Shown here: positions 18,560 through 60,929 of the stretch, piece by piece
Layout of the letters: each line of letters starts with the position of its first letter
Position numbering within the stretch: the first letter of the stretch is position 1
Source: Bryoerythrophyllum caledonicum
Taxonomy: Eukaryota; Streptophyta; Bryopsida; Pottiales; Pottiaceae
NCBI GenBank assembly: GCA_963971425.1
Contig: OZ020514.1
Location: 47,583,527-47,647,526 of the forward strand
Length of the DNA: 64,000 nt
Direction: 5' to 3'
The notes under the pieces: generated by a model
The model's database searches: none
What the model saw: only the letters and a program-made list of their open reading frames with translations
Told to the model about the DNA's origin: nothing
Position numbers and translations under genes: made by a program

Positions 18560-20659
18560 TTTTATAGCTAGACCTTGTCTATGTAGACTTTCAATGTGCT
18601 AAACACTGTGGACACGGCCATTGATCCACGGCTACCTCTAAAAGAGATGAGATTAGGCATTCTAGATGCCACTCCGAAGAACACAAGTCACAAATGACCA
18701 TTGTAGCTGCCCGTTTGGCACTACCACACAAACAAAATTGTAATCTTACAGAGATGTGAGAAAGACTAGTATGAACAGTGCCATGAATGTGTGGCAAATA
18801 GCAAGGCGCCTAGTTGCGCGTGTGATCCTTCCATACCTTACCATCACAACCTTCTAATAGTAACACTCCCAAGTATTTCACCTCACAAAACTCCAAAGAT
18901 CACCCGTCCCGCCGTCACATCCAAGGTGGTCGGCATTGTTTGTTGCAAATATACATATTCTCCACGAGTAAATTGCCGCACTTGCTGCCGATAGCCTCCT
19001 TTCCATATTGTAGCATAGTGCAACGTATCCAAATGTTGAGCAATGGAGAGGTTTTCCAATGCCACAAGCATCACTCGTTTGATCAAATTTGCACGTTGCT
19101 CACACACTTGAGCCGACGTGTTCGGATTGTCCCTGTTGGCAACACGGTGTCAGCATCTGCCTCAATGGCCTTCGGTAATATTGGATGCCTTCCAAACAAC
19201 AAAAAGTAAGGGGTAAAGGATGTTAAGGATGCTTGCTTATTAAACCGGTAGCCTAGGGCTATCCATTGTTACCACAAATCTCAATCTTGGTGATGTCCTT
19301 TCTGCAATCTATACTTCCAAAGCCTCCTCTTAAAAAATTTCACCATGTACTCCGCCAAACCATTTGTTTTGGGGTGATTCTTCAAAGTAGAATGGTGATC
19401 TATCATCGCTTGCTCACACAACGTTTGAAACTTATCCAAAAACTTTTGTCTTTGGACTCTGAGCACTTTGGCTAGAGTTCCAAAGCAACTTAGAACACAA
19501 TCAAAGAAAACATAAGCGGCTCGTTCACTGAACTTGTCAGGCAAGGCAATCAATTCTACCCACTTCAAGAAATGTTCATCATCACTAATACATACTTGTT
19601 GTGTTAAGGTGTTAGTGGTAGTGGACTTGCAAAGTCCAAGCTCCTTCTGTATTCTAAGCCCATAAATGACAATGGTTGCAATTGTGGCATTGGAGCGTTA
19701 AAAGAGAGTTGCATACAATCACACACAATGCATCGGGCAACCAAAGGTTGAATTTGTGACTACATTCCTCACCACCTATAGTAAAGCAGGAACAAGTTGT
19801 AAGTCTTCCGCACTCCAAAGTACCCAAGGTCTTTATCCTTGTCTTTGATAAGCAACGGAGACGCCACAACTTTTTGGATACCATCCAACGACACTCTCAA
19901 AAGGTGAGTCTTCTCCTACACAAACCGTTTGGCTTGTTGTGAGACCCGATCTCTCTCTTTAACATACCAGGTAGGCACCACTTCTCCATTCTTTAGAAAC
20001 TGCATAACGTTCGTGTTCTCATAAATTTCTTAGGCGCTCGAGATTCTTCATCGCCATCCTCATCTATTGTTGTCATAGTAGCTTCTCCAGTGTCACCTCC
20101 ATGCATAGCCAACACATTTAGAAAGGCCAAACAATGCCAATTTGGCAACGGATTGACCTCATTTCACCATGCCACCAAGTCTCGTAATATTTTCTTGGTT
20201 AGGAATTGGATTGCGGCTAAAGCCGTTAGCATTCATCTTCACTAAGTCCGCTCTGAGCACCACCTTGAAGTTGTATTCCATCAACATCAAGACCCATCAT
20301 GCTAGGTTACCTGTCAATCTGTCAGATTCCATCAACCACCTTATATGTTGATGATTTGTAACCAACCTAAACTCGTTATTATAAAACTAACACAAAAAAT
20401 GAGCAATTGTCCATCTTGTGACCAAACATTTTCCTTCATAAGAGCTATACTGAGCTTTAGCATTGTTCTTATTCCGATTGGCGTACGCAATCATGGACTC
20501 CTTCCCATCATCATCCATTTGGGTCAACACCGCGCTAGTTTTCAACGCGCATAGTCTCCATGTAACAGATATGTCCTTCCTTCTATTGACCTTTGAAGTG
20601 TAGGTGTTGATCCCGAGCGATCCTTCAACTCGTGGAAGGCCGCCTCTTCCTCATCCCTC
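18560..20659 (-). mobile_element. Ty3-type LTR retrotransposon fossil with a PHD finger after the integrase
   Basis: On the minus strand, fragments in family order are present. Reverse transcriptase/RNase H remnants lie at about 20150-20640 and the zinc-binding start of integrase near 19650-19880. The integrase core and C-terminal part follow at 19100-19568 (KNHPKTNGLAE, then GYRFNKQAS and YFLLFGRHPILP). A PHD-type finger is at 18591-18797 (FCLCGSAKRA, CDLCSSEWHLECL, QWPCPQC). The copy is old and broken many times, and no LTR of its own was found. Its right edge coincides with the start of element G1 at 20660, so G1 probably inserted into it. A chromatin-reading module behind the integrase would fit targeting of integration, by analogy with chromodomain Ty3 elements. 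Confidence 0.7.
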
Positions 20660-23600
20660 TGTTACAGAACATGGTGTCGAGGGCGTCTCTGCATCATAGT
20701 GTCTTAGCTTAGATTAATTTGTCACAAATCTACGGGTTTAGGGATGTACAACGGCGCATCACATTCATCCGTGGATGTTTTCCATCCACTTAGGGTTGTA
20801 TGCATGTGCGTAAAGCGCCGCACACGTCCTTGACTTGGCGTCTTTGTCAAGTCAAGCTTTGTGAGTAAATTAGAGAGTGTTTAGTGATGACCTTTGCTTA
20901 AAAGTGATTGTTTATCATTAGTAAAGACTTTGCATGCTCTTATACTACTTGCACTTGTTGATTCTCCGGTCGTGGAGTACGACACGCTTGACTACCATAG
21001 TCATTCACTACTTATTCACTTGACAAAGACCTCCCCACATATTCTTCTTTAACTATGAAATTAGAGCTTAGAGAGATGGAATTTTTTTTAAGGTACCTAG
21101 ATTGATGTTGAAGTGCTCGTTTAGAAGATTCCAACGCAACAAACGACCCATGATTAGGACTATTTTTGAAGAAATAGTGGGCGGTGAAAGTTTGGAGTGA
21201 AAAAAGACAGTTGCTAGACCTACTGCCAATAGTTTCATCCATTTTGCAAATTTTCATCTGTCTTTCATTTTTTCATCCATCGGACAAGTTTTCATTTGTG
21301 GGACGATTCTTCATCCGCGACTGCAATTTTCATCCATTGTGGATGAAAGTGTAATTTTGGGTAGAACCATTTAACTGTGAGTTAATATCTTCCAAAATAA
21401 TTACTATTTTTGTATTTTGACTTCAAATTTGAGCTTTCTATGGGGGTTTCTTCCTAGTCTAATTGAGAAACTATTAATTGAAATGTTTTTCAAAAACCAC
21501 ATTTTTGTGGGTGTTACAAAAAAAATATTAAAATAGTCGCTTCTTTGAAGTTCATTTGTGGAGGCAATTTAGCTTGGATTTGAGCAAAATTTGCGCTCAC
21601 TTTATTTGAAATTTTCTACAGAAGCCATTACAATTATTGGATTGGCATTTGACGTTAATCTTCAGCATTAAATGATGATTTTTAAAGGCTGAATTGTGTT
21701 TTTGAACACCAACTTCCATAAATTTCCATAGAACTTCAAGTTTTGAGACTTGGGGAAACACTCTCTTTGCATTGCAGGTTTGCGACTCGAGCCATTGAGT
21801 GCAGGCATGTGCCAGTGGCTCTAACCCCTTGTCTTTCCTGCTTTTATTTTGTTGGTAAAGAGGATCCAGTTTTGATTTTTGGATTTTTGCGCGGTACCTT
21901 TCCGTGTTGTGGGCTTGTTGCTAGTGTTTTCCAATGGTCCCATTTATTATTCTATTAAATCGTGATAGGGTACGGTAGGGGTGGTATCGAGTTGATGGTT
22001 GGCAAGACCTTTTTATGTAAAGGGTTGTGGTTGGACCTATTGTGGGAATCCATTCCCACAAGGTTTTGGAAGTTAATCTAAAAATCCGGCAAAAACAAAA
22101 AAAATAGTTAAATAAGTACGATAGTCTAGACTAGAATCGAACATATAGTCAGTTTGTCGGAATAAAAAAGGGTGGACCCGGTTGAAATCCTTAATTGCTC
22201 CTAATACTGCTAAACAGGTGGCCGGAGTAGTTGTTGGAACTACGGGGAAGTTTGCCATCCCGAGCTGTCACCATCAATCGTACTGCTTCCGCCCTTGATG
22301 AAGGTTCTGCCGGACAATCCTGAAGACCCGAACGAAGTTAGTCTACTGAAGGCACGCTTACAGGGAATGGGTTGCGCCGGGTTCCTGGACGTTGCCTTGG
22401 GTATCCGAGAAAAGGTGTTCGTCCGGGAGTTGTTAGGAACGCCAGACCTCAAGTACGATGGGATGCTGCGAGGATAACCGAAACTGTAGGGAGTTCTCGA
22501 ATAGACGCAAGCATACGACTTCCGGGCAGGGCGTATGAAGGTAGTCGAACGGAGAGACGAGTTCCTGGCAATGGAGTTTGAAGGGAAGGTAGACCCGAAG
22601 GAAGGATTCTGCATCCAAGATCTGAAGCATCTGGACGCCGGGCTCGTGGTAGGGCTTTTGAACCCTATCTTCCATCCGGAAAAGCCGAAGCGGCTGGTGT
22701 CCAAATGGGCATGTACCTTCCTTGAAGCACTCCAGGGAATGATAGTGGTGGATTGGGGTACGCTTATGAGCGAGATGATTAACCGGCTCGTGGCAAATTT
22801 CCAGAAGGTGAAGAAATCCGCAACCCCTCTAGCCTCTTATGTGGCGCAGTTCTACTGCCACCATCAGCAACTCACGTAGACGGAATAGAGGGTGTATGAC
22901 GAATTCCTAAGCTTCCTGAAGTACGGAGGTGAGGAAACGGATGAAGAGTCCGGAGAAGATGCTGAGCTAGTGCCGCACACAACAACGACAGACACTCCGG
23001 AAGAAGACTAGAGGAACCAGAAGAGAGCATGAGACAAGGACCTGGATCCGGAGAGTCTGGATACCAGTCTATCAACCGGATCGTCCAGCTCAGATAAGGC
23101 CGGGCCGTCCGAGGAAGCCAGCTAGAAGAGGCCGAAGCTTAACCCAGAGGACTCCGAAGGCCAGATGGTGGAGATCGATGAGATTCTGCACAGACTGACC
23201 TGGAGAGTGAAAACTCCGGGAGGTCAACTACGCCATGAAGAAAGGAGTGGAGCAGGTTTTCTGGAGTCTAAGCGTCAGCCGGAAAGAAGAAGTCATTCTC
23301 CAAGTGCATGATCTCCGGAACAAGGAGATTTCCGTGAAGGCGGTGCACCTATAGGTCTCCAACTTGTATCAAGCCAACACGGCGTTGGAGAAATTCTCCG
23401 CTTGATCGTCTCCGCTTGATCAAAGAGCGTTGGATCTTCTTCGATCAAGCGGAAAAGATGGGAGACACCTAGGGTCAGATGAAGCTACTAGTGGACAACA
23501 TAACCCATGTGAGTCCGGAACACAGGGCGGCCCAAGTACCGGAGGACTTCATGACCCCTGACCAGACCACGGCTCCTCCGGAATCACCACAATCCGAGCC

Positions 23601-25764
23601 GGCTCCAGCCAGTGGAACCTCATCAAATCCGGAGGACCTCGATACACCATCACCACGTGCACTAGTAGAAGGCATCGTGTCTCCTAACCTTAGCACAGGT
23701 GAATTATTAAAGCAACTTCCGGATCCACTGACCCCTCCGATAGTGCGACTACTAGAGTCTCCGGAGGAGACCGATCTCCGGGCACGACCCAAGTCCGTAT
23801 CCCGGCGACTAGCACACGGACCAAGGAGTCCTTCCGGCAGCTATAGGGACCTAGTCAGAGAGGTCAAACCAACTGCCGAGCCAGAATGTCAGTCCCCTCC
23901 AGTCCCGGAAGCTGCTCCGGAATGGCAACCTCCGCCTCCAAACTCCAGAACTCCGGCGGCAAGGACTTCCCTAGCTGCCGAACCGGCAACCCGAAAGGTC
24001 GACTCTTCTCCGTCAACGTCAAAGAAGGTGAAGGATAAGTAGCGGGTTCCAGTGGAGATATCTCCCAAGCGTAGGAGCAAGAGAAATAGGGCACCGGGTG
24101 CCCCATCTTAGGATAATGTTTAGATATAGGATTTTTGGTTGTAAATCGAGACCGACAGCGATTAACGATGGGGCTCGCCGTTGCACCCGGCTGGAGATGT
24201 AATCGGCGGGTTTTGTAGCTTAAGTAGAAAATCCGGAGTCCGGAACCTTTTCCATGATTTAAGGATCTGAGATCAAATCTGTAATTTTTCCGGATTTCTC
24301 GGATCTATAGGATAAGATTCTCCAAATCTTCCGCAGATAGGATAAATACTAAAATTAAGGAACTTAGTTTGTACTTAGAAGATGGATTTTAGCAAAATTG
24401 ATCATCTTGTTTTCTTACGCTGAATATACTTCAATCCTTTTTTGCTAGATTTGCTTCCTAGTTCTTGTGGCGTGAAGTGTTGCCTTTGTAAGGAATGGAT
24501 CCATTGTGGTACACAGGGTTGTGGAATAATTCTTCCGGAGTTGAGTGATATCCTGTTTGCTAGAGAGAAACCGGTTGGGACTTACCTTGGGAGAACGCCG
24601 GAAGAGGTGGACGTGTATTGCACAGGTGTTCCTGGTAGTCTCCAGGGTCCGGAAGAAGTCCGGAGGGAAAGAGATGAACTGCAGAGGTGTTTTTGGTAAT
24701 CTCTAGGGTATAGAACAATCCGTGTGATCCCGGATTCCGATCAATCCGGAACTTATCCCCACAATAGGAAAAAAGCGTGAGGTGTAGGTCTAGAAGAAAC
24801 CGTCTTTGGTAAATTGTAACACTTGTTCCGGAGAATCACACCTGTACTTACCGGAATGCTGTTGTAGTCCGGACTTGTCTCTGCGTGACCGCGCCCAGAA
24901 GGCCATCTGGGAGTTGTGAGAGCATAGGTCTAGTAGCAACAATCAATCATTGATTAGCGGAGTAGGGAGAGTGGGTGTCTAGCCACTATAAGTTCCGGGG
25001 CAGTGGGTGTCTAGCCACTTAAAGTCACAAGGGAGTGGAGAATCCGGCCACTTACACAAAACAAGATTAGTGGCATTCCGGTCACTTGGTTAAACCTCTG
25101 GAAGACTCTCTGAGGAGGAATAGAGATAAATCAAACTACCTTCCGGTCATCTGGAAACTAGTTCTGGACACCATTGTATTAATTCTGGAATGTGGAAAGA
25201 TCTAAATCCGTAGTAAGTGGGTGAATAGAATAGCTAGCCTATCAACGATTGATTGGTAGTTTAGTTTTTGTTGGATATTTTGAGAAGAACAATAGATCTC
25301 TGTGGGAACAAAACCAGAGTGGTTTACTTGGGAAGCATTTAGTGATAATTGAGTGCATTCCGGAGGAATACTGACTCTACGAACTGCAACACATGTGCTA
25401 GCCGAAGGTGATGACTGGTGAACCACAAAGTTTGGTGGTTTTGAAGGTGTTGGTTGTCCGTTTGTACCCATAATTAATAGATAGCACTCGTGGATAAGTC
25501 CCGATGTGGTTGTTTTTAATACTGGGTATACAAAGTCGGCATTACTGCTCCCTGTGATTAGGTCACTCGAAGAGTGCTATTTCCACAAAATTTGGGCTAG
25601 GGTCGGATATCAATGAGGCTTTTGAGCCTGTTTTGGCGTTGGATACCAACCGTAGGCTTCGGGTCTGGGCGGTGGGCACATTTGACGACATTAAAGACGA
25701 ACTTCGTCATGTCTTGTGAGACAAGTTTCTGGGACGGGCTAGGGGCATCTTCCTACCCAATAGG
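20660..25764 (+). mobile_element. Family G (Ty3-type) copy G1: LTR-like 5' end and leader, split by element A1
   Basis: 20660-21770 matches the 5' regions of G3 (from 55084) and G2 (down from 39065). All start TGT followed eight bases later by a GTGGCGTCGAGG-like phrase, and they share a TTGACTTG.CGTCTTTGTC block and the same AT-rich stretch near 21370. The untranslated leader (about 21771-22040 and 25392-25764) is colinear with 56370-57010 of G3. Only this 5' portion is present. The copy ends where a CACTA-type end begins at 25765. Element A1 sits inside the leader, and the unoccupied equivalent site is visible in G3 at 56639-56643. No coding part of G remains here. The 3' boundary of the LTR is not defined by eye. 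Confidence 0.75.
22041..25391 (+). mobile_element. Family A element, copy A1 (gag-like, no LTRs seen), broken
   Basis: The left end is the perfect hairpin TGTGGGAATCCATTCCCACA and the right end is ...ACTGCAACA. Flanks CCTAT and CATGT are each one change from CCTGT, the sequence at the empty site in G3 (56639-56643), so a 5-bp target duplication is likely. Gag-like coding sequence resembling the A2 protein runs from about 22295 to 24120 in a decayed state, with on the order of ten breaks. The recognisable start region (GMGCAGFLDVALGI) and the block LNPIFHPEKPKRLVSKW are kept. Downstream come the conserved ATTAACGATGGGGC block at 24161, repeated phrases such as GTGGGTGTCTAGCCACT, and the terminal CTCTGTGGGAAC phrase about 90 bp before the end. 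Its imperfect duplication suggests it is older than A2 and A3. Confidence 0.8.
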
Positions 25765-26040
25765 CACTACAAGAAAACCATGTTTTTGGTGTCGTCAAGG
25801 TTGTTACGTCTTGTGTTTTCTGTGATGTCACACGTCAGGCAGAAATCTCTACAGTACCTCGAATTTAGTTTGACGTTGCATCAAACATGTCTCTGTTAAA
25901 GACAAAACGCGGTGATGTCACCATAGACAAGGACGTTCTTGGTGGCGTCCAAAAAGACATGGTCACATCAGAGTACAATGTCATAGAAAACGTCGGATGT
26001 CCACGTCAGCCACTGCGTTTATTTTCACTATAGGATGATT
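25765..26040 (+). mobile_element. CACTA-type transposon end fragment
   Basis: Begins CACTACAAGAAAACCATG, the same design as the 10403 element (CACTATAAGAAACCCGTG), followed by TTTTTGGTGTCGTC and several GACGTT, GATGTC and GACATGG motifs like that element's subterminal repeats. No matching right end with an AGG duplication was found nearby, so I treat it as a fragment or truncated copy. A weak candidate opposite end, TTTTTGTAGTG, lies at 28043-28053, but the flanking 3 bp do not match. Confidence 0.5.
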
Positions 26041-28053: not shown

Positions 28054-28483
28054 AACATTACCTCCCATTTAATGGAAACTCATATCCCGCCATATTGTAG
28101 AGTATAGATGTGCACTTTAGCTCTTATGTTCTACATGTGTTAATTTGGGAGTCGCTAAATCTCCCAATATAACAAATAGGGTGTTCTTTGTGTACTTGCC
28201 GTACCAATGAAGCCCTCTGATTTGGCCTTGGAACTATGCGCCTAGTCCCATCTGGCCACACCCATGAAAAAAAGGCCGTTCTTTCAACAAAACCTTGCTA
28301 TTCGGTGTCCATCTCTATCACGATCCATAGCAGAAAGAGCTGGAGGAAGTATCCCATGTTGTAGCTTGTGCAAAACAAGACCGTCTTCCCACACATCCCT
28401 AACAACTTAGGCCTTAACCGGTTCCTCATCCATTGCCCAATTAGGCAACGTTGATGCGGAGCCAGACATTAACGTGACATAAG

Positions 28484-29760
28484 CTACTGCATGCCACCCC
28501 GGAACTGTCTATCACAGTCTCCATGCCTTCTAGCACCAGTCAAATCCTCCTCCGAAGGACTTGGATTGCAAGATAGACCATCCGCATCCAAGTTCAGGAT
28601 GTCGCCCTGATGTACAACCTCAAAGTCATACTCCTCAAGCAACAAAGCCCACCTAGCAGGCTTGCCAGTAAGCTTGTCAAACTCCATGAACCACTTCAAA
28701 GGCTGATGGTCCATCACCAACGTAAAACGTTGCCCATACAAATAGGGCCTATAATGGGCTATGGTCCAAACTGCGGTCAGGGCCTCCCCCTCGTAGAACG
28801 AATAGTTGGATCCGCGTTGTTGCTTTTCCTAGAAGCAAAAGCGACAACGTACTCTCGACCCTCATCATCTTTCTGAGTCAATACAACCCCCAATCCCACA
28901 ACACAAGAGTTTGTGTATAACTGAAAAGGTCGTCTAGCATCCGGTCGCCGCAGTAGAGGCACTAAACTAGGCTTTAGCTTTAAGGTAGCAAATGTCTGCT
29001 GCTTCTCCCATCCCTAAGTCCATGGCTGATCCTTCAATATATCAAAATGATAACATCATCAATATAGCATCGGACAAACGGTAAACAGGTCAACACCCGG
29101 TCCATTGCCCTCCAAAACTCAGCGGATGCGTTCTTGATGTCAAATGGGAGAAACTTTCATTAATGATAGAGTTGATCCCTCCTATCCCGATCAACTCCCT
29201 AGAATGCAGTCTTCATCCGGTCATCCACCATCAATGGTATCTGGTGGTAACCACACCGCAAATCTAGAGTACAAAATACTCTAGCGTGGCCGACTACATC
29301 AAACAACTCCTCTGGCATAGGCATGGGATACCGGTCTAACTTGGTCTTGCGATTAACCGGCCTATAATCCCTACACATCCACTTCTCCGTCCAGTTGCCA
29401 AAGATATCCTTCTTTGATGGCATAACCGTGGCACAAGCGTACTTGCCGTTGGAGAGCTCAATCAAGCTGGCGGCCAACAACTCTTGACAACGAGTCTAAA
29501 CCCCAAATTTCTCAGAAAATATGAGCTTATACAGTCGTTGGAAGATTGGGTGGTCGTCTTCCAACTGGATTTGTATTGGTGTGCCTCTATAGCCCTCCAA
29601 CTCATGGAGACTAAAGGCAAAACAACTACGATACAAACAAATAAACGCTCGTACCCTTCGTGCCTCGGCACTAGTAAGATGTGGCCCCAAATCCAAAGGC
29701 CAATCATCAAACTCCGTGGTCTCTTTCTCCACCGTAGAAGACTTACCGCCAAGCGGCACG
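28484..29760 (-). pseudogene. G2 reverse transcriptase and RNase H region (fossil)
   Basis: Fragments in family order. GTPIQIQLEDDHPIFQRLYKL is the polymerase N-terminal approach at about 29530-29590. WMCRDYRPVNRKTKLDRYP and CTLDLRCGYHQIP are the fingers/palm at 29230-29400. FQLYTNSCVVGLGVVLTQ and FASRKSNNADPT are the RNase H start at 28800-28950. LVMDHQPLKWFM with DFEVVHQG and LNLDADGLSCNP is the RNase H end at 28560-28720. These patterns are typical of Ty3/gypsy pol. The region is broken and partial. Confidence 0.8.
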
Positions 29761-30049
29761 GCCAGTGATTGCTACTTGGTAGCAAAGACGGCATTGATGC
29801 CCCTAGACTCCTCACTCACGGAATTCATAGACAATCCCGTGTTGTGATGATAAAACCGGGCAAAGATATCCCGGGCATCCTCGACCAAGACTGCAAAACC
29901 ACACTGAGCACAAAGCTCCTCAGTTGCATGCCTCTTCAAACAAAAAAGCAACTCCGCTTCCTCAATCTTTATAAGATCTAGCACCACTGCCCCCTAACCA
30001 TGAGAGTTTGCCCTCTTCACACATGGATGGTTACTTAAATGGCATTGAA

Positions 30050-31010
30050 CGAGGGTATTGAGGTCAATGGCTTGACCCAACAAGTATCAACGCTGGCCCT
30101 CGAAGAGATCCAATGCGGCGGTGGTGCCTGTCAAAAAGTCCATCGCTTGCTCCCTCTCAACGGCACAAGCTCCTTGTAAGTTTGGGAAGAAGAATCCTAA
30201 ACCATGCCTAGACCACGTGTCATAAACGCCAAAGAGCCCAGATAGCACATCAATGTGGGAAATGCCCCCCGAGTGAAACCAGCGCGGTTGACCACGGCCA
30301 ATGATGGCTCATCATTCTTGGTAACCTCCATGGAAGCACGGTGGTTGTCTAAGATGTCACTACCTCACGGCGCACGGGCTGTTGCACTTGACTAAGTGCA
30401 AAGGTGAGCAATTTCGAAGATGCCATGTTGGTCCAAATTCAACGTGACCGATGGGCGTAAGAGCCCAAAGTCGCGGCATCAACAAACGTGGGGGGACCGA
30501 GAAGGTGATGGATGTATGCCCTATCCTCATGCACCTTTGTCCGTGTATTTCCCAATGGGGGTACATTCTCAATAATGTACCCGGGTGGCATCGATTGGTG
30601 GATAGTCTACCACTAGATGAGCTTGAGCAAATCCGCAAAGAGACCTGACCGTGGATCATTCAAGCCACGTCCACTGCCCGCCCGTGAATGGCCTTGGCAA
30701 GGCCATCCGGCAATCACCAAGTCCACGTGATCTAATCGGCGAAGATCATCCTCACTAATCAACGTCACATCACCTGGCAACTTCTCAAAACACCCTCAAA
30801 TCGCGGAAGGTGGTCACTACTCTCGATACAACGCTAGAAGATGTTGAATGTGATGGTGAATTTAACGGTTGGCTACAAAGCCACTATCCACGTGGATATA
30901 GAGTTGTACCTTGAGCCTGGATTCCAACACAGCCGCGAGCCTCGTCTTGATATTGACAAATAATTGTACAAAGGTACTACCCTCGTCCGGTGGTCGCTTC
31001 TCAATAGTGC
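30050..31010 (-). pseudogene. C5 cytosine DNA-methyltransferase domain within G2 (fossil)
   Basis: On the minus strand, between protease and reverse transcriptase, the motifs of an unpermuted C5 DNA methyltransferase appear in order. They are a degenerate motif I region (LAAVLESRLKVQ, about 30910), motif IV GWPCQGHSRAG with the nucleophile Cys (about 30690-30720), and motif VI YIIENVPP (about 30560-30580). A motif VIII-like GSYAHRSR follows (about 30440), then a motif IX-like stretch KELVPLEREQAMDF (about 30150) and LLGQAIDL (about 30070) as the motif X counterpart. Order I-IV-VI-VIII-IX-X argues against the permuted DRM type. In an active relative such a domain would methylate cytosine in DNA, possibly the element's own copies. 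The domain is broken here. G3 carries a better-kept motif I. Confidence 0.8.
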
Positions 31011-31704
31011 AAGCCAACAACGGAGTTGAAGAGTTGACTCAAAGGTGGGAAACATTAATAGCCTCCACAATCTCCCGACTGCGGCCTGTGAGCTTCAATT
31101 GAGTTCCCCATGGAGGAAGGGGATCCTTGCAATGACGTGCAGGGATCTCCACTATTCTGTGCTCGTGTGATTCCGCTACCTCCGACATAAAAGCATATGT
31201 CTCCTCCAAAAGCAAAGAACCACATGGCAAATCAGATGCCAATGCACTACACCCAAACATAGCATCCGCCGTAGAAGTCACCGCGCTAGCTGCGAAGACA
31301 ACCCGAATGAGCTCCTTTCTACTATCACCGGCAGACCACCCAGGCCTTATCCGAGCCTCCTCCGTCCAGTTATCCACCCCAAAACGGAGGGGATAAAGTA
31401 TCTGCTGCGCCAACAAAATGTCGTAGTTGGTGGCGCCACTCACCGCGCAATGGAGAGATACGTGAGAGAATAAAAGACTAGATCCCATGCCAAACATCAA
31501 CCGCAACAAATGTCCGGTGTAGCCCATGGCCTTCTCCGTGCCCCCTACTGATGTAACAATTGTAAATTGGCAAGGCTCAAGGTCCGAAGCACCTAGATCC
31601 AAATCCTGGGCTAGCTGCTTGCCAATCATCACTGGCTGAGCTCCGGAGTCCAGCATAACACGTAAGAGGGTAGCTCGGGTGGGATTGCCGTCCGTACGAC
31701 CAAC

Positions 31705-34700
31705 TGTCATAGTTTGCAGAGTTAGTATTCCTCCGGAAGGCACTTAATCGTCACTAATTGCTTCCAAAGTAAACCGCTCTGGTTTCGTTCCCACAGAGAT
31801 CTAGTGATCCTTTCAAATTAACCCCAAAATCACTAGTTTATTCATCACCTAGGTTAGTCAATCTAGTCAGGGATGATCCGGATCTTTCCGGATTCCAAGA
31901 CCCAAGCAAAAACTTTCCGGATCTAGATTCCGGAAGGTTTCATAGTTATTTCCGGAAAGGATTTCCGGGAACGTGGGGGGGTAGTTTGTTTTACCTCTGT
32001 TTCCCCTCAGAGTGGATTCCGGAAGGTTTAAACGAGTGACCGGAAGACCACTGATCCTATTTTGTGTAAGTGGCCGGATTCCCCACTGCCTTGTGACTTT
32101 AAGTGGCTAGACACCCACTGCCTCGAAGTTTATAGTGACCGGACAATCACTCTTCCTCTAATCTACTAACCTGTGATAGGGTGTTGGTCCTAGACGTAAC
32201 TCTCACGACATCTGGAAGGCCTTCCGGATGTGGTCACACAAAGGTACGGCCGGACTACAACGACGTTCCGGTAGCAGTTTTGTAGCTCTACAAGGATACG
32301 GATAGAGTTCTACTTGGAAGGACTCCTTCTAGAATCACATAGCAGGTTTTTCCTATCGTGGGGGTAAACTCCGGTTCTGGACCAGAATTCGGGTTCACAC
32401 GGACTGTTCCGTGCCCTAGAGACTACCAGGAACGCCTCTGCAATATATCTCTTCCCCTCCTGGTTCTTCCGGACTCTGAAGGTGACCAGGAACACCTCTG
32501 CAACCTCCTTCAGTTGTTCCGGACACTCCCCTACTGAATATCCAAACCGGTTCACTCCTTAGCACAACAACACATCCTTCTCTTTGAAGAAACTTACACA
32601 AAACTTTCTACCGCAACGGACCTTGAACCTCACACGTAAAATACTCTCTTCACAAATACTAGGTAGCAATTCTAGAAAAGCTCTGAAATATATTCAACGT
32701 AGAGGAAAAGAAAACAAGGTCCTGAGTTTTTCAAACCCATCTACTAAGTACAAGAATAGTTCCTAAATTAAGGCTTATCCTATCTGCAAGAAATCCGGAG
32801 GATCTTATCCCGAAAAATCCGGAAAAGAGAATCTCAGATCCTATTTTCCCGGGTCCGGTTTCCGGACATCCGAAAAGTACGCAAAATTCCGGAAAGGTCC
32901 TAAGTTTCCGGAAGGCTTAGTTTCCGGATTGAGTAGCCGGGTGCAACTCTGGGCCCCATCGTTAATCGCTACCTAATTCCAATCCCTAAGCTACTACTAC
33001 TCCTAAATCTAACCTATCTAAGGGGGTGATCCAACATTCTTGAATCTTGGACTGGTACGTCTCGTAGATGCCTCTGCCTTCGCCTTGCCGGCCCTCCTTC
33101 GCTGGGGAGTAGAAGATGCCGGAAGGTCTTGTGATCCGGCTCCGGAAGTTGGAGGCTGGGATGTTGCCGGTGGAGGGGGTTCGGAGGTGGAATCCACCAC
33201 AATGGTCTCCGGAGCTTCAGCAAAGCCTTGGAATTCGGCTCCGGGACTAAGAGGATCCGTCGCCAAACACCTAGCGAGTGGTGGAGTAGACTTCCGGCGA
33301 CCTGATGAGGGAGGAGTAGGTGCAGGCCGGAGGGGAGAAGGGGTTGCACCCTGACTTACCTCCGGTAATAACTCCGTCCAGTGCTTTCCAGCACCGGGGC
33401 TTGGGTTGCTGGAAGGACTGCCGGTCATGGGTGCAGCAGGCTCCGCCGGAGTTGGAATATCCGCCTGCTTCCCGGAGACCTCCGGGTGTACGCTTGGGGT
33501 TTCGGATTCATCCGGAGATGTCCGGATACGGACTCGAACTGCAATGTCCTCCGGTGCTTGAGTGCTTCGGTTCTCCGGTCCCTGAGTGGGTAGGTTGGCC
33601 ACCAGTTCCTGCATTCGAGTCCATGTCTCCATCTTCTTGCCGTGGTCGTGCAAGAACCGTATGATCTGGATCCGGTTCAGCCTTCCTTCCTTCTCCAGCT
33701 GATCTGTGAAGAGAAGACTCCGGTTGACCGTGTCAACCGGAAAGGCTAACGCGGCGCGTACCTCTGTCAAAGCCTGTGCGGAAGCGTCTGCTCGTTCTTC
33801 CGCTTCCTTCAGCTTCTTTCGGGACTCCGTCAACGCCGCAAACGTTTCGTCGCACGTCGCAGCAAACTTGTCTCGACTCCGGATGATGGCAGCCTGTTGG
33901 ATCTCTAAGGCTTGGAGTCGGAGTGTGTTCTTCTGTAGTTCTTGGATCGCTGTCGGTATGTCCACGACCCTCTCTACCTCTAACTCCCTCCTGATGCCGT
34001 CCAAGACTTCTCGTAATCGCGCTTCGGATTGGCACACGATCGCCGCACGCCATCCTGCATGCTGGATGAGCTCCAGTAGATCGGGCCCGTCGAGTCCAAC
34101 AAGGTGCGGGGGCTCCGCCGGAGGAATGCGACCTTCACGTGGTGCGGACCTGGGGCCTTGCGGAGGTTGCTCATCCGTTGGCTGAATTGATGTAGATGGC
34201 CCCGGTGTCGACTCCCGCGGTACAGATCTGCTCCGCTTCCGGTTTTGGGGAACTGTCTCGGGCAAGGAAGTCTCCACGTCCTCCGGTTCCTCGTTATCGT
34301 CTCCTGGTTCTGGACCTCCATAGTTCTGGATCTCCAGCAGCAGCTCGTATGCGTCTTGCTCGTCCGGGGTAAGCACATCGTGTTGCGCATAGAGGTGAGT
34401 GAGGTACGAGGGGAGAGGGGTGCCGGCCCTCTTCGACTTCTGGAGCCCCTTAACCATCCGGTTGATCATCTCGCTCATAAGCGAGGCCCAGTCTACACTA
34501 AATTTCTCTCTCATCGAACCTAATATGGTGGTGGCCCATTTAGACACCACCCGTTTAGGTTTCTCCGGGTGAAAGATCGGGTTCAAGAATCTTACCACAA
34601 TTTGCACGTCTTGATGCCGGAGGTCGTCGGTGCTGTAGCCTTCTTTGGGGTCGGCTTGCCTTGTGAATTCGTCCCCAAGTATGTCTTCGCACCGCTCCGC

Positions 34701-35509
34701 TGTCTTGACGGTTCCGCTGTTGAAGGAGTAGGTTTGCTGCCACTCCGGAATACCCCAGGTTTCGGGGTGAGCTCGGATTGTGCCATCGTACTGATTGTCC
34801 GGTGTCCCGAGCAGTTCCTCCACCAGTTTCGGATCCTTCACGCCCCACGCTACGTCGAGAAGCCCTCGGCAGCCCATATTGGTGAGGTAGTGTTCGAGGA
34901 CGGCTTTCTCCTCCGGGTCTGTCGGTATGATCGGGACCACCCGTTGAACCGCCGGTTGCGTCGTCGTACCACGAGTAGTCCGGGAAGGTTCTCCTTCCGC
35001 CATTTCTGCAGAGATTCCTCACAGTCTCTCCGGTATCACCTGCACGCACTGACCTCGCCACACACTCTCTCTAATGGAAACACTTCCGTTCTAGGGGGAT
35101 TACAATGCACGGGCAAAGGAAAAAGAGTAAGCCAAGAAGTGTGGGGAGTGAACCCTAACTTCTGGCTTAAATACCTTCTGCGGTGTACGGACGGCCGTTA
35201 CGGTTATAATAGCGTTTCCGGCTCCGGATCCATTTCGAATCCGGATTCTCTCCGGTTCCGGTTTACTTCCGGTTCCGGATGCTTCCGGCAGGTTCCGGAC
35301 GTGAGCGGTCTCTCTGGTTCCAAATCCCTTGGATTTATGGTAATTCCTAAACGGTTTTAAGGATCATTGGTACCCCTAGGTTGTCTTATTTCTTATTTGC
35401 CTATTCTATAGTTCAAACTTATGATTCTAACGTTCTAACACTAATTTTTTTTTGTTTGTGCCGGATTTTTAGGTTAACATCCGGAACTTTGTGGGAACAG
35501 ATTCCCACA
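31705..35509 (-). mobile_element. Family A element, copy A2, looks near-complete
   Basis: Minus-strand element whose start is TGTGGGAATCTGTTCCCACA (35509 downward) and whose end is ...CTATGACA at 31705. A perfect 5-bp duplication CCAAC lies at 31700-31704 and 35510-35514, and the interrupted protease frame of G2 resumes on either side. Length is 3805 bp. It encodes one long gag-like protein (33018-35003) without visible breaks. Downstream are the ATTAACGATGGGGC block (complement at 32953-32966), phrases shared with A1 and A3 (GTGGCTAGACACCCACTGCC) and TCTCTGTGGGAAC about 90 bp from the end. Despite the TG...CA ends and 5-bp duplication typical of LTR-type integration, I could not match the first few hundred bases to the last few hundred, so no LTRs are visible. 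It has no protease, RT or integrase and must be mobilised in trans if at all. Confidence 0.85.
33018..35003 (-). CDS. Gag-like protein of element A2, 661 residues
   Basis: An uninterrupted frame starts MAEGEPSRTTRG. Residues about 25-225 form the conserved domain shared with A1 and A4 (GCRGLLDVAWGVKDP, FLNPIFHPEKPKRVVSKW, WASLMSEMINRMVKGL, LPSYLTHLYAQHD). Its layout recalls the plant 'putative plant transposon protein' type of retroelement gag (PF20167-like); this is a pattern judgement only. Residues about 230-330 are acidic then Pro/Arg-rich. About 350-480 is helical with a likely coiled coil (FAALTESRKKLKEAEERADA). The last 160 residues are Pro/Ser/Thr-rich with a basic tail (RRTSPRFKNVG). 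No zinc knuckle is visible. It fills most of the element and is the only A-family reading frame in the window that looks whole. Confidence 0.75.
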   Translation of the reverse strand: MAEGEPSRTTRGTTTQPAVQRVVPIIPTDPEEKAVLEHYLTNMGCRGLLDVAWGVKDPKLVEELLGTPDNQYDGTIRAHPETWGIPEWQQTYSFNSGTVKTAERCEDILGDEFTRQADPKEGYSTDDLRHQDVQIVVRFLNPIFHPEKPKRVVSKWATTILGSMREKFSVDWASLMSEMINRMVKGLQKSKRAGTPLPSYLTHLYAQHDVLTPDEQDAYELLLEIQNYGGPEPGDDNEEPEDVETSLPETVPQNRKRSRSVPRESTPGPSTSIQPTDEQPPQGPRSAPREGRIPPAEPPHLVGLDGPDLLELIQHAGWRAAIVCQSEARLREVLDGIRRELEVERVVDIPTAIQELQKNTLRLQALEIQQAAIIRSRDKFAATCDETFAALTESRKKLKEAEERADASAQALTEVRAALAFPVDTVNRSLLFTDQLEKEGRLNRIQIIRFLHDHGKKMETWTRMQELVANLPTQGPENRSTQAPEDIAVRVRIRTSPDESETPSVHPEVSGKQADIPTPAEPAAPMTGSPSSNPSPGAGKHWTELLPEVSQGATPSPLRPAPTPPSSGRRKSTPPLARCLATDPLSPGAEFQGFAEAPETIVVDSTSEPPPPATSQPPTSGAGSQDLPASSTPQRRRAGKAKAEASTRRTSPRFKNVGSPP

Positions 35510-38500
35510 CCAACCACCATGACTTTGTCATCGTTTACCAAACGTACCACCTTTGGACGCACACTGCGTCGCTCCCGTGCGGATCGCACTGCAATGTCAA
35601 ACAAATAAGCCATTCCAGCGATCAAGGACTTATCCTCGGAGGACTATTCCATAAGTGTGGAAAAGGCATTGGCCTCAAACACGGAAATAGCCTCCGCCGC
35701 GAACTTGGCCCGCATTGCCATCAAATCCTTTTCGGCCGGTGGAGCCGTCCGCGATGCCTCCAACAATGGCATTGGTAACTTGCCCTCCAACATACTACCT
35801 GCCATGTGGAATAAACCGGATGGTTTAAAATCCAGTGTCAGAAAGTCCACACCGGCAAATACCGGCAACTGCATCACCATATACGCCAAGGTGTGTACGG
35901 CATCTCCACGGCTAGAATTAACTGGTGGGATCGGGGTTGGAGTCGGAGCGACAATAGAAGTCGCCGCATCCGCGATGCTGAACGAAAGAGGTAACCGGGA
36001 CTGACCAATGTGGTCTGGCAATCCCGTGTGGCGTGGACGGCCACTTATCCATGGCAAAGAGGAAGAAGATGCCACTACCTATGCGGTAGTCTGAGTAGGA
36101 GTGGCAAATGTTGCCACCACCTCCCCTGAAGCGCCATACAAATAGCAATCTAGGGCTGAAAATGTGTCGTGATCCCTCACCAGAGGTTGTGCGACCGCCA
36201 CTTGCTCCAAAGATGCCATCGCAATCATCTGCTTCCTTAGCTCCGCCATCTCGGTCTGAAGTTTCTTCACAACCTCTGATTCAGCAGCCGAAGACCCTGG
36301 GCGCTTCTCCGGTCCCCATTGCCCTATTAAGCGCTTCCACCTTGACAAACACTTCTACTAAAGTGGCGTTCGTGTGATATTGAAAAAGAAGATGTGTACT
36401 AATCAACTCCACCATCCGCTTGTCTAGCTTGGAGATGAAGATCTTCACCAGCTGGCGCTCCGTGAATACATCACCGACCTCCACTAACAATCGTGCCAAC
36501 CGGGTATATATGGTGCGTGGGATATTGTCCTTCTCTCGACGGAAATCCTCGATGTGATGCATCTCATCACGCTTGACCCCCCCTTGGTTCACCTCCAAGT
36601 GCGCCATGAATTGCGCCAAAGGATCAAAAGCTGGCGGATCGCCAACCGCCATCAATGCCGCACATGTAGCCATGGCCAACCGGGACATGGCCCCCATGCC
36701 AGATCGGTCGACCACAATGGCAATGCCCTTGCCTCTGGAGTCCTCACCGAGGAAACCTTCTTCCATCTTGGGCTCCTCAGTGGAAGTCGAGAGCTGAGCC
36801 ACCGCACTTTCTTTGAGCGCAGTTACCAACTCCACACGCTCGCGCTAGTTATCCTCAACGGGACGCAATTAAGTGTCGTGCTACATGGTCCACCGCCTGT
36901 ATGACTGAAGGGCTTCCAGCTCCAAATGTTGGAACAAGAGCTCAAACGCATACTAGTCGTTAAACGACGCCGTCCGTTGGCGCTTCTCCTTCATCTACGT
37001 TTGGAATCGGCGCCGCTAATCAGGTAGGGAGATGCTCTTAGCCTGTCTTGACAACCTGTCTCGTACGACATGACGGTGATCGTCCTCCATGTCATTAAAT
37101 GTGCCCATGCCTTAGACTCAAAGCCTTTGGTTGGTATCCAACGCCGAAACTTGCTCAAAAGTCTCGTTGGTATCCGAATGTGGCCCAAAGTCTGTGGTAG
37201 AAGCACTCTCCAAGTGGTCTGGTAAGGGGGAGCGATAATACCGGCTCCGCGTACTCACCATAAACAACAACAAACTTGGGACCTATCTACGGGTACTATC
37301 TAAAGGGTAAGGGTACAAACGGGCAACCTGGGCCTGTAAAACTACCAAACTTTGTGGTTCATTGGTCATCACCACCGGCTAGCAAAGGTCCAACCACAAT
37401 CCCCCACATAGAAAGGTCTTGTTGGCCAAAAAACCCAACTTCACCCCTACGGTACCCTATCACGATCTAGTACAACAAGAAAATGAGGCCACCGTAAAAC
37501 ACCGGCAACAAGCCTGCAACACGAGGAGGTACCGCACAAGAATCCAGAAATCAAAACCGGATCCTCTCTCCCAACAACATAAAAGCAGAAAAGACAAGGG
37601 GTCAGAGCCACTAGCACAAGCTTGCAGTTGATGACCCTAATGTCTAAAATTAAGGGAGTGGTGGGGATTGACTGTGGTGTTTAAAAACACTAACCCTCCA
37701 ATGAAATCAGATACATTGGTGAATAATCACGACAAACTCCAAAGTAACATTAAAATTAGGTCAAATGGCCTAAACCCTAACTATAAGCATAAATGTCACT
37801 CACATCCAAGTAACAATGCCCTTGTAAACTAGTCCCAAAATTTAGTACTAACTTTTTTTTTAAAATAACAAAAAACATGTGATTGTTTTCAGACGTCACG
37901 AAAACTAGCCAAATATTTTATTTTCTGTGAACTAACAAATTTATATATCAATAATCTTAGAATTCTCTCGCAAATCCAAACCCGCAATCATAATTAAAAA
38001 ATAACTAAAATTGCAAAAGTTAGATTTTTCAAGCATCCAGTCCAGGGATGTTCTGAAATTTCTGCTCACAAACTAATGTTATTGAGAACTTCTGCACGGT
38101 TTTTGATACCAGTGGATTTTGGAGCCCCTGTCACATTTATGTGCCCCCTGCCCATGAGCCACGTGTTCTTGACCGCAGCCCTTCTTTTTGTCCAATACAG
38201 GTTGTCCACAATCACGACTTCCTGAGTTCAACTCTACGCAGGCTCGGGCCCACGCCTTCCTTATTAACGCGTTGGGATTGTGACCCTTGCTCTTGCGCTG
38301 TCACCTGGGGTCCCATACGCTGCCTTGTTGGCGCGTTCCGATGGGCTGCTTTTGAGGAATGAGCCCATACATGCCTTGCAAGTTCCCTCCGCTTGCTCTC
38401 AAGTAGGTTACCACTACCGTGATGAGCCGTCGTCCCCTCAAGTTCTGATCCAATCAGCCCTCAATGGAACTTTCCACTGAATAATACTCCGTCTCGTACT

Positions 38501-39226
38501 GGATGGATGAAAAATCCGGGATCCTTCTCTCACGCACTCAGCGCCATCAACTCCAGAACAAGAACATGAGTATGAGCATGAGCTTCCTATCTCACACTCA
38601 AACCTCAAGTACCACTAAGACGAGTACTAACGCAACGTCTAATTTGTAACCCATTTTTTCCTCCACTCTTTCCATTTTCTACAAATTCTTCAAATGTAAA
38701 AATAGTGGAAAAACAAGAGAGATATGAAAGGGTCTTTATCAAGTGAAAGATGTAAATCACACGTAGTCAAGCAGAATCAACGAGTGCGAGCAGAATTAAA
38801 GAATGTGGAGCCTTTAATAATGCTTACCATCACTTACAAGCAAGCACTCACTAATCACTCTCACAAAGCTTAACTTGACAAAGATGTCAAGTCAAGGAAG
38901 TGTGCGGCGCTATACGCACACGCATACAATCCTAAGTGGATGAAAATCATCCACGGATGAATGTGGTGCATCGCCCTTCGTCCCTAAACACATGTAGATT
39001 AGTAACAAACTAATCTATGCTAAAACTACGATACGGAGAGGCCCTCGATGCCACGTCCCATGACATTTTGTATTTTATTGATACTAAGTACGTATTGAAA
39101 TCTACTTATATAATAGGCGTCAATGTCTGTCCGTCCGCCGCTCCCGGTCACATGACCTTTGGAATTGCCATTTGAATCAAATGTGCCTTTTGAATTGAAT
39201 GTGAACTTTGAAAGAATCCTCCATAT

Positions 39227-54912: not shown

Positions 54913-57059
54913 ATTGCATTGAGGTACCTGGCGACAATACGGTGGTGCTTCGCGGGCTCTCTATTCTCCAAGAATGTTTGCGGATCAGATTGGAACAAAA
55001 AATATAATGAAGATTCAGAGAACTCAGATGATTAAAAGATGCCAATACCAAAGTACTACAAGTTACAACTACAATTACTGGTGTGTCGCGGGATGTGGCG
55101 TCGAGGACCACACTACATCTCGTGGTGTTAGCGTAGATTATATTAGTCTAATCTACGTTAGTTTATGTTTAGGGACGTATGGCGGCGCACCCCATTCATC
55201 CACGGATGACTTTTATCCACTTAGGGTTGCGCGTGTGTGCGTATGGCGGCGCACCCCATTCATCCACGGATGACTTTTATCCACTTAGAGTTGCGCGTGT
55301 GTGCATATGGCGCCGCACTTGTCCTTGACTTGACGTCTTTGTCGAGTCAAGCTTTGTGAGTGTTTAGAGAGTGATTTGTGAATGTTTACTTGTAAGTGAT
55401 GATTTTCATTAGTAAATGCTCCTCATTTTCTAGTTCTACTTGCACTCGTTGATTCTCCCCTTGTGGAGTGCGAGACGCTTGACTCTTGTGTGATTTCATT
55501 CTTGTTCAATTTACAAAGACCTCCCGCACTCTCTTCTTTAGTTCTTAAATGTGAGCTTAGGTGAGTAGAAAAAAATTGTGGGTACATAGATTGATGTTGT
55601 AGAGCACCGTTAGATGAAGACAACGCAACAAACGGCGCTCAATTTGGAGAGTTTTTGAAGAAATTGTGGGCGTTCAAAGTTTGGAGTGAAGAAGGGCAGC
55701 ATTCTGGTCTGCGCCAATTTTTCATCCACTGCGTCGTTTTTCATCCACTGCAACATTTTTCATCCACTGCGTCGTTTTTCATCCACTACTTTGTTTATCA
55801 TCCACTACGTCGTTTTTCATACATTGCATCTTTTTTCATTCGCCGCTTGTTCTTTATCCGCTGCGGCAATTTTTCATCCGATTCACGATTTTCCATCCAC
55901 TGCGCGAGTTTTCATCCGCTGCGGGTAGATTTCATCCACTGCAGATGAAATTGTATTTTGGCCAGATTTAAACAACTGTGAGTTAATATCTTCTAAAATA
56001 ATTACTATTTTTGAATTTCGACTTCAGATACGAGCTTTTTGGAGGGGTTTTTCCGCAGGAGACAAGAAAACTTTTGAGATGAAAGTTTTTTACAAATCAC
56101 ATTTTTATGCGGCTATACAAAAAAAAGGGTCGGCACTTTGGAAGGGGATTGCAAGATTTGATACTCAGTTTGGAGTGACATTCTTTGGCACCCATAGTTT
56201 GGGATTCCGTCATTTAATCCCAAATTGGTAGTGGATTGGCATTTGTCGCGTTTCTCACCCATTGAATTGCATTTGCATTGGGGGGGTTGTGTTTTTGAAC
56301 TTCGCGGACAAGTTCCCACTATTTCCCTTGGTGCTAGACTTTGGAGAAGTACTTCTAGTATTTCTCTTTGTACAGCAGGTCTGCGACTCGGGCCATCCAC
56401 TACAGGCGTGTGCCAGTGGCTCTGACCCCTTGTCATTTCTGCTTTTATGTTGTTGGGGGAGAGGATCCGGGTTGGATTTCTGGATTTTTGTGCGGTAGCT
56501 CCTCCGTGTTGCGGACTTGTTGCTGTTGTTTTCCGGTGGCCCCATTTATTGTTGTGTTAGCTTGTGATAGGATATCGTAGGGGTGAAGTCAGAGTAATGA
56601 CCGGCAAGACCTTTTTCATGTGGGGGGATGTGGTTAGACCTGTGTTAGCCGGAGGTGATGACCAGTAAAGCACATAGCTTGGTGATTTTGTAGGTGCAGG
56701 TTGCCCGTCCGTACCCTTACCCTTTAGATACCATCCGTAGATAGTTACCCGGGGGATTTTTGTTTATGGTGAATATGAGAAATTGATACTACTGTTCTCC
56801 CTCACCAAACTCTGCGGAGAGTGCACCGGCTTTAGACTTTGGGCCAGGGTCGGATACCGACAAGGCTTTTGAGCCTATTGCGGTGTTGGATATCGGCCGT
56901 AGGCTTTGAGTTTGGAGTGTGGGCATGTTTGACGACATGGAGGACGATCACCGCCAGGTTGTGGGTGATTGTTTCTCAGGTCGAGCTGGGGGCATCTCCC
57001 TACCCGATTGGCGGCTCCGTTTCTAGCCATGGATAAAAGGAAAGCGCCAGCGTTCACCG

Positions 57060-58740: not shown

Positions 58741-58762
58741 ATCGGCACGGGAGCGAGATAGT

Positions 58763-59480
58763 GTGCATCCAGGGGTGGTACGCTTAGTAAACGATGACGG
58801 AGTCATGGTGGTTGGTCGTACGGACGGCAACCCCACTCGAGCTACCCCCCTATGTGTTATGTTGGACTCCGGAGCTCAGCGAGTGATGATTGACAAGCAG
58901 CTAGCCCAGGATTTGGGTCTAGGTGCTTTGGATCTCGAGCCTTGTCCATTCACGATTGTTACATCGCTTGAGGGTACGGAGAAGGCCATGGGCTACACCC
59001 GACATCCGTTGCAGTTGATATTTGGCGTGGGATTTGGTCCTTTATTCTCTCACGTACCTCTCCAGTGCGCGGTGACTAGTACCACCAACTACGACATTTT
59101 GGTGGGCCAGCAGGCACTATATCCACTTGGATTTGGGGTGGATAACTGGATGGAGGAGGCCTGGATTAGGCCAGGGTGGTTTGCCGGTGATGGCACGAAG
59201 GAGCTCATCTCCGTGGTCTTTGCAGCTAGCGCGGTGACTTCGACGACGGAGGCTATGTTTGGATATGGTGCTCTAGCATCGGACTTGCCGTCTGGTTCTT
59301 CACTTTTGGAGGAGACATATGCATTTATGTATGGGGTGGAGGATTCACGCGAGCACCCACCAATGGCGATCCTTGTTTGTCATTGCAAGGATCCGCTTCC
59401 GCCGTGGGAGACGCCGTTGGAGCTCATTCGTCGAAGTCGGGAGATTGTAGACGCTCTTGATGCTCCACCGTTGTCAGTAG
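58763..59480 (+). pseudogene. Aspartic protease region of G3 (fossil)
   Basis: The retropepsin-like motif VMLDSGAQRVMI (about 58855-58890) is followed by LGALDLEPCPFTIVTS and YDILVGQQALYPLGF, the usual second half of Ty3 proteases. It belongs to the single gag-pol order of family G and lies directly upstream of the methyltransferase domain. The matching site in G2 is where A2 inserted. Confidence 0.75.
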
Positions 59481-59532
59481 ACTCTTCCACCCGTTGTTGG
59501 CTCGCACTATTCAGTGGCAACCACCTGATGAG

Positions 59533-59725: not shown

Positions 59726-59947
59726 CCCTGCATTATTCATCTAGGGGACCTTAATGTCTGAAAGCAAAATATGTTTATTACATTAAATCATTTGACAATA
59801 TAACAACAATGCCTTGATTTCATACTTCCCAACCAAGTAATATTCGCACTAGTTATCTAAGAAATCTTTTACTCTCCTAGCTTCTTCTATGTATTATCAC
59901 AACTCTCTTGATTTCGCATACATATACGTAGCTACTTTTATTATCCC

Positions 59948-60893: not shown

Positions 60894-60929
60894 AGTCCTT
60901 GTGGAGGAACAACTATACACCCATGTACA

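Follow-up and report, generated by a model that had tools for sequence, protein, structure and literature searches.

Methyltransferase-bearing retroelements in the window

We analyzed a 64,000-nt stretch of DNA from Bryoerythrophyllum caledonicum (assembly GCA_963971425.1, contig OZ020514.1), which we call the window. It contains parts of three copies (G1, G2, and G3) of a Ty3-like retroelement that encodes a C5 cytosine methyltransferase between its protease and its reverse transcriptase (RT). Their features are listed here by position, with identities to copies from elsewhere in the genome (C7b and L042); ORF stands for open reading frame.

38739..39066, minus strand: A1 terminal repeat of G2, which is the 5' end of the element and includes the putative self-primer hairpin; 81% identity over 363 nt to A1 of C7b
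37262..38738, minus strand: 5' leader of G2, starting with a primer-binding-like site (ACTTGATAAAGAC at the A1 end); two pieces, 87% and 73% identical to the C7b leader
35512..37261, minus strand: Gag part of ORF1 of G2; 82-83% DNA identity to C7b ORF1
31705..35511, no strand: unrelated insertion in G2 between Gag and protease, which splits ORF1; a gap between the matches to C7b
31042..31743, minus strand: aspartic protease ORF of G2, in frame with the methyltransferase; Asp_protease_2, E = 5.5e-4, under the curated cutoff
30360..31119, minus strand: methyltransferase motifs I to VIII of G2, interrupted by stops; PF00145, E = 1.5e-12, with the stops written as X
29775..30358, minus strand: end of the G2 methyltransferase (motifs IX and X) and tail, frame-shifted; tblastn with L042, combined E = 7e-119
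29772..29774, minus strand: UAG of G2, followed by CAA UCA (the putative leaky-stop context)
28185..29771, minus strand: ORF2 of G2, with RT and RNase H, ending early in the zinc-binding domain of the integrase; 88.7% and 83.1% identity to C7b ORF2
55084..55490, plus strand: A1 repeat of G3; 76% and 84% matches to C7b A1
56766..59703, plus strand: ORF1 of G3, with Gag, protease, and the start of the methyltransferase, including motif I; 80.2% identity over 2959 nt to C7b ORF1
20659..25765, plus strand: G1, a 5' fragment of a third copy, with A1, pieces of the leader, and the start of Gag; it has a perfect 13-nt self-primer pair

Both of the copies that bear the methyltransferase, G2 and G3, are broken. 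A first-pass annotation of the window, made from the sequence alone, had placed the methyltransferase directly after the protease in both of them. This order is correct, but G3 retains only motif I, and the methyltransferase of G2 is stop-interrupted and frame-shifted. The interval that had been proposed for the element, 28200-39065, is accurate: A1 of G2 starts at 39066. The expected match of G2 to a C5 methyltransferase profile was also found (PF00145, as listed), and the longest stop-free piece, 60 amino acids that include the PCQ of motif IV, matches PF00145 by itself (E = 3.4e-11). Together, protease and methyltransferase occupy 31704-29772 in G2. From motif IV to the end of the methyltransferase (30720-29775), G2 aligns to L042 with E = 7e-119; because this alignment falls into three pieces, we consider this part to be frame-shifted. 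The annotation had RT, RNase H, and integrase following these motifs in G2. RT (RVT_1, E = 0.0035, a weak match) and RNase H (RT_RNaseH, E = 8.2e-17) are present, but homology to C7b ends near 28185 and takes in about 14 residues of the zinc-binding domain, and neither Pfam nor comparison with the genomic copies identified an integrase core in G2 or G3.

For G3, the methyltransferase piece (59461-59751) does not match any Pfam profile at E = 0.1 when taken alone, contrary to what had been expected, and it is recognized instead because the DNA from 56766 to 59703, taken as one stretch, is 80% identical to C7b. The protease ORF of G3 is at 58742-59599. By comparison with C7b, homology stops at 59703, ahead of motif IV, and no RT was found. 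Inside the insertion in G2 is a 666-amino-acid open frame (33021-35018, minus strand), which does not match any Pfam family at its curated cutoff.

Copies in the genome and relatives elsewhere

Searching 5.8 billion proteins with the protease end and methyltransferase of G2 identified 22 polyproteins, the best six of which are 1330-1339 amino acids long and 70-75% identical to G2. Protein P0001 contains the protease and the methyltransferase according to Pfam, along with a Gag part that we assigned from two CCHC-like motifs, and it ends with the methyltransferase tail. P0001 to P0004 end alike (ALSATK), and P0005 and P0006 end at the same site with a different last residue.

We then compared P0001 to the genome itself. 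All 35 of the matches that we scored span the whole of Gag, protease, and methyltransferase to within one residue; 30 have a 1353-amino-acid frame and 11 lack internal stops. We scored the best 35 out of 4010 candidates from a first look, so their full length was partly selected for. Nevertheless, they rule out a one-off fusion of a methyltransferase to an element, and they bear out the proposal that the methyltransferase is a standing part of a Ty3-type family. In the whole assembly (437 Mb in 894 contigs), a profile search with PF00145 gave 123 matches among 1057 candidates. At least two of the 123 are not elements (a bacterial-looking gene, L001, and a DRM-like exon, L046); the others were not each looked at individually. 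We retrieved ten copies as separate upstream and downstream stretches, chosen for their long open frames, plus seven shorter stretches; a further stretch, L054, was left out of the analysis. The retrieved copies are of two types: the window type (C7b and L039-L043) and the C type (C7a, C2b, and others). Overall, we judge that the family is probably high-copy and recently active.

The host of these elements looks like a moss. The PF00145 matches share large contigs with nuclear rbcS genes, and among the rbcS matches listed (120 of 865), identity is 92% to a protein from Ceratodon purpureus, 84-87% to five of the seven proteins listed for Physcomitrium patens (75-76% for the other two), and 56-64% to named proteins from outside the mosses.

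Related proteins have various domain orders. P0018 has methyltransferase-RT-RNase H-integrase and P0022 has protease-methyltransferase-RT-RNase H. In P0020 (EukProt GHRQ01002908.1) the order is RT-RNase H-methyltransferase-integrase-PHD; this placement, after RNase H and ahead of integrase, implies that the methyltransferase either changed position as the elements evolved or was acquired on two occasions. A seven-domain profile identified 202 proteins among 7999 scored candidates, and 116 of the 120 that were listed come from jgi, ena, or lgn contigs. P0024, a protein labeled as coming from a metagenome-assembled genome of Candidatus Obscuribacterales, is 78% identical to the methyltransferase domain of P0001; it is probably from a mis-binned eukaryotic contig. 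A search of plasmid records gave no match, and we set aside seven methyltransferase loci from viral contigs because they are distant. L001 (G000:C14:16014858-16018817) is a bacterial-looking stretch within a 22-Mb contig, where a 364-amino-acid C5 methyltransferase lies beside a transposase-like ORF that we take to be of an IS-type family. This could be either contamination or transfer.

Coding regions and the UAG between them

The coding capacity of the element is Ty3-like, with RT, RNase H, and a DDE integrase preceded by a zinc-knuckle Gag and a protease, but the ends are permuted (see below). ORF2 of copy L017 matches RVT_1 (E = 5.6e-32), RT_RNaseH (8.5e-35), H2C2 (3e-15), rve (3.5e-13), and a PHD finger (2.3e-9); no chromodomain was listed for ORF2 at E = 0.01. 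ORF1 matches zf-CCHC (2.6e-5) and, under the cutoff, Asp_protease_2 (0.0018). In the relatives P0010 and P0013, the protease scores above the Pfam cutoff.

We examined 18 junctions between the two ORFs, from the 17 retrieved copies and G2. In 17 of the 18, ORF1 (Gag and protease, with the methyltransferase at its end) and ORF2 are in the same frame and are separated by a single UAG. The stop site is followed by CAR YYA in all 18 copies (CAACCA in C-type copies, CAATCA in those of the window type), and UAG CAR YYA is the readthrough context of tobamoviruses (PMC2754532). An RT motif follows the methyltransferase at 16 of the junctions, which agrees with the predicted position between protease and RT; the other two are L044 and G2, and the RT of G2 was identified by the weak Pfam match and by BLAST. 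In the window type, ORF2 has no methionine in its first 116 codons (L039 and L042), which rules out internal initiation for that type. We infer that the UAG is read through: most ribosomes would stop there, and a minority would continue to make RT and integrase. If so, the methyltransferase would be produced at levels like those of Gag and would be expected in the particle.

C-type copies have an additional upstream frame, ORF0, of 216-223 amino acids (L016:3908-4555, L012:3884-4552, and equivalents). ORF0 of L016 has no match in Pfam. It looks coding because dN is about 0.21-0.23 between subfamilies while dS is saturated.

Ends, target duplications, and putative primer

A repeat shared by the upstream and downstream stretches was found in eight of the ten copies examined; in the other two pairs, a blastn search of the stretch did not turn up a second A repeat. 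Self-comparisons of C2b, C7a, C9, and C7b give the layout A1...B1-A2-B2. The A repeat is 363-372 bp, and A1 and A2 are 98.6-100% identical across the eight copies; the B repeat is 231-233 bp (106 bp in C7b). The element does not have the same direct long terminal repeat (LTR) at both ends: A1 is the 5' end, and B1-A2-B2 is the 3' end. All eight copies have the same B1/A2 and A2/B2 joints, and all eight have termini of TGTC...GACA with an identical 4-bp target duplication directly outside. The B1/A2 joint is a palindrome, GACAGCTGTC, in all eight. At the A2/B2 joint, the end of A just before a 13-nt site (described next) is fused to the start of B just after a purine-rich tract, which lies ahead of B1. 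At its 3' end, C9 (L029, 4297-6324) has extra tandem A+B units of 599 bp, as would be expected from multi-LTR circles or concatemers.

The 13-nt site lies just 3' of A1 and is perfectly complementary to a stretch within a hairpin in A1 in all eight copies. None of the 1174 other 13-mers per leader pairs perfectly. The two element types differ at 2 of the 13 positions, and both differences are compensated. In the window, the pair is kept in its window-type form in G1 and has decayed in G2 and G3. Given the perfect pairing in all eight copies, self-priming of reverse transcription is likely. We considered a transfer RNA (tRNA) primer instead and rejected it, as none of the copies inspected shows a TGG-type site where A1 ends; this did not include a screen of the genome's tRNAs.

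Type and possible target of the methyltransferase

The motifs of the element's methyltransferase are in the unrearranged order (I, IV, VI, VIII, IX, X), and its sequence and fold are closest to Dnmt3, although motif IV is PCQ instead of the PCN of DNMT3B. The ratio of nonsynonymous to synonymous substitution (dN/dS) is 0.03-0.05, so the enzyme is under purifying selection. The first-pass annotation had called for a tree with MET1, CMT, DRM, Dnmt3, and published retrotransposon enzymes. In our trees, which include human DNMT3B and DRM sequences, the element enzymes come out as sister to Dnmt3, and enzymes from elements with differing domain orders fall into one group. The first tree includes the 37 of 142 proteins that passed a filter for motifs and length (L034 was left out because its frame was wrong); the second, shorter tree includes 20 hand-picked enzymes of 41 from elements, and the outgroup sequences L001, L032, L035, L036, and L038 are absent due to the motif filter. 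An origin from DRM is ruled out by the motif order, as DRM has IX-X ahead of I. We think that the element probably encodes a Dnmt3-type C5 methyltransferase. The host does have DRM-like exons (L046, L047, and L052, in G000:C3) with rearranged motifs, IX-X first; P. patens is said to have no orthologs of DRM1 or DRM2 (PMC10952607).

We also counted transitions between G2 and three genomic copies, without polarizing their direction. In the protease-methyltransferase part, the values are 0.19-0.21 for CG, 0.17-0.19 for CHG, 0.09-0.10 for CHH, and 0.05-0.08 for A/T positions; in the RT part, they are 0.18-0.23 for CG and vary from 0.09 to 0.26 for CHG. This pattern is consistent with an old copy in which methylated cytosines have decayed.

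What does the enzyme methylate? Most likely, it would act on the element's own complementary DNA (cDNA), or on a circle formed from it, before or at insertion. Alternatively, it may act on host DNA or on RNA, for instance by marking the region of insertion or the element's RNA. The targets of retrotransposon methyltransferases are unresolved in the literature and RNA methylation has been suggested for SymbioLINE (PMC5890265), and the PHD finger in ORF2 suggests contact with chromatin. However, the Gag-side position predicts packaging together with the cDNA, and in its fold the enzyme most resembles DNA methyltransferases, so we consider a host DNA or RNA target to be somewhat unlikely.

A possible replication route

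Taken together, we think that these are probably moss Ty3-like elements that have a Dnmt3-type methyltransferase on the Gag side, a leaky UAG, a self-primer, and an integrated form that is circularly permuted. The anatomy, the selection on the methyltransferase, the near-identical repeats of some copies, and the 4-bp duplications are all apparent in the genome. The permuted form suggests a route of replication. The element's own RNA would prime reverse transcription, with the 13 nt after A1 paired to the A1 hairpin. Because the purine tract and the primer site are placed as they would be for an LTR of order B+A, reverse transcription itself looks normal, and it is integration that would use the internal B|A palindrome. 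A normal cDNA would be joined into a two-LTR circle or a concatemer with an exact A|B joint, and the DDE integrase would then cut the internal palindrome (GACA^GC^TGTC). Opening such a circle or concatemer at the palindrome yields exactly the A1...B1-A2-B2 form that we observe, and we infer the integration step from this. The full scheme, in which self-primed circles or concatemers are methylated by the Gag-borne Dnmt3 before the integrase cuts them, so that the genomic form is a circular permutation, is a tentative proposal. Integration from circle junctions was once proposed for retroviruses and later dropped.

Several observations weigh against this picture. The protease scores are mostly under the curated Pfam cutoff, and L044 has a sense codon where the other copies have UAG. 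The 18 stop sites are from copies of two element types, which makes two independent contexts, and likewise the eight self-primers amount to two independent cases; in C9, four other 13-mers from the leader pair at 12 of 13 positions. ORF2 of the C type has an early methionine (codon 24 in C7a and codon 82 in C2b), so internal initiation is excluded for the window type only. Most of the retrieved copies were picked for long open frames, and the sequence-based identification of a moss depends on a single gene, rbcS. The sister placement with Dnmt3 depends on one long-branched human DNMT3B, in trees that hold no plant DNMT3, CMT, or MET1 and in which 18 of the 41 enzymes are of unknown context. 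Support in the shorter tree is just 87/86, and the DRM sequences do not join DNMT3B. The CG and CHG decay in G2 points to methylation of old copies and says nothing about the action of the element's enzyme. Finally, readthrough, self-priming, and the circle route are all read from sequence.

Could another type of integration explain the ends? The order A1...B1-A2-B2 is that of the split direct repeats of PAT/Ngaro elements (PMC6681497), and SymbioDIRS elements of Symbiodinium, which have a tyrosine recombinase, also bear a Dnmt3, in their Pol polyprotein (PMC5890265). The moss elements might then be tyrosine-recombinase retroelements that acquired a Ty3 integrase region or that use a recombinase in trans. 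However, they encode rve, H2C2, and RT_RNaseH in ORF2, and all eight copies have 4-bp target duplications. Tyrosine-recombinase retroelements (DIRS/PAT/Ngaro) are not known to form target duplications. No tyrosine recombinase was found in ORF0, ORF1, or ORF2 at E = 0.01, and the leaders of C2b and C7b have no frame above 216 amino acids on either strand. These results lead us to reject integration by a tyrosine recombinase, and we consider this explanation very unlikely. The layout might instead be secondary, if normal elements with [B-A] LTRs insert and tandem copies or LTR recombination mimic the permuted form. The extra 599-bp units of C9 and the normal LTR positions of the primer and purine-tract sites could be explained this way. 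However, recombination after insertion would not place matching duplications directly outside TGTC...GACA, as they are in every one of the eight copies, so a secondary layout is unlikely.

A different question is whether any new mechanism is needed. The closest known element, KnitGypsy-Dnmt3 of the alga Klebsormidium nitens, has its methyltransferase in the Pol ORF along with Gypsy domains, and its capture was concluded to be independent (de Mendoza et al. 2018, PMC5890265). As described there, KnitGypsy-Dnmt3, like the moss elements, has Gypsy-type coding domains, an intronless Dnmt3-class methyltransferase under purifying selection, and a DIRS-like repeat structure. The moss elements might be the same lineage in another streptophyte, from one old capture of Dnmt3 that was passed down or across, and the single tree group of element enzymes with different domain orders would fit. 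On the other hand, the text on KnitGypsy-Dnmt3 that we covered, figures and supplement aside, mentions no leaky stop, self-primer, target duplication, PHD finger, or land plant (PMC5890265). Compared with that description, the elements studied here differ in their moss host, in having more than 100 PF00145 matches, and in having the methyltransferase on the Gag side of UAG CAR YYA, and they also have the PHD finger, the 4-bp duplications, and the self-primer. We consider this explanation about as likely as not.

Other features of the window

A fragment of a different Ty3-like element, with RNase H, integrase, and PHD, is at 18603-20623 (minus strand) and is 34-52% identical. The integrase stretch within it, at 19356-19852 (minus strand; 37-52% at the protein level), belongs to neither G2 nor G3. 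At 42980-44659 (plus strand) there is a DDE_1 transposase gene (PF03184), which is broken into two open stretches. There are tandem arrays of 25 bp and 13 bp (39177-39476 and 60710-60917) and a dense 23/31-nt satellite from base 22 onward, which we did not delimit.

Relation to known elements

Retrotransposon-borne Dnmt3 has been reported in dinoflagellates and in a single charophyte (PMC5890265). A 2019 review reports Ty3/Gypsy and DIRS elements with adenine or cytosine methylases in stramenopiles, red and green algae, charophytes, and others, and its text gives land plants, such as tracheophytes, as being without them (PMC6338049). A 2025 paper mentions that DNMT3 has been reported within LTR Copia and DIRS elements of streptophytes and dinoflagellates (PMC12344493). 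A survey of plant LTR elements that includes mosses predicts self-priming for the moss Tcn1 clade, and its main text does not mention a methyltransferase or PHD (PMC6317226). In the literature, figures and supplements aside, we found no moss retrotransposon reported to bear a methyltransferase. This kind of element was already known but rare; the methyltransferase finding is real and is broader than the first-pass annotation stated. What is new is the land-plant host and the anatomy of expression, priming, and integration.

Individual features have parallels elsewhere. Moss Tcn1 chromoviruses and Tf1/sushi elements are also Ty3-type with predicted self-priming, but Tcn1 carries a chromodomain, whereas the elements described here carry a PHD finger, a methyltransferase, and split repeats (PMC6317226, PMC7175516). 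The UAG CAR YYA context is shared with tobacco mosaic virus, and a stop between ORFs is shared with candidate readthrough elements among rice gypsy elements (RIRE2 is cited), which we know by description only; unlike in rice, the moss stop divides the methyltransferase from the RT (PMC2754532). A replication route of this sort has not been described for DDE-integrase retroelements in the literature that we covered.

The many moss copies, some with identical repeats, extend retrotransposon-borne Dnmt3 to land plants. In P. patens, de novo methylation is carried out by DNMT3 (PMC10952607). The moss elements make it possible to ask how an element benefits when it methylates DNA, and their combination of split repeats, a DDE integrase, and target duplications makes the integration of a retroelement from a circle testable.

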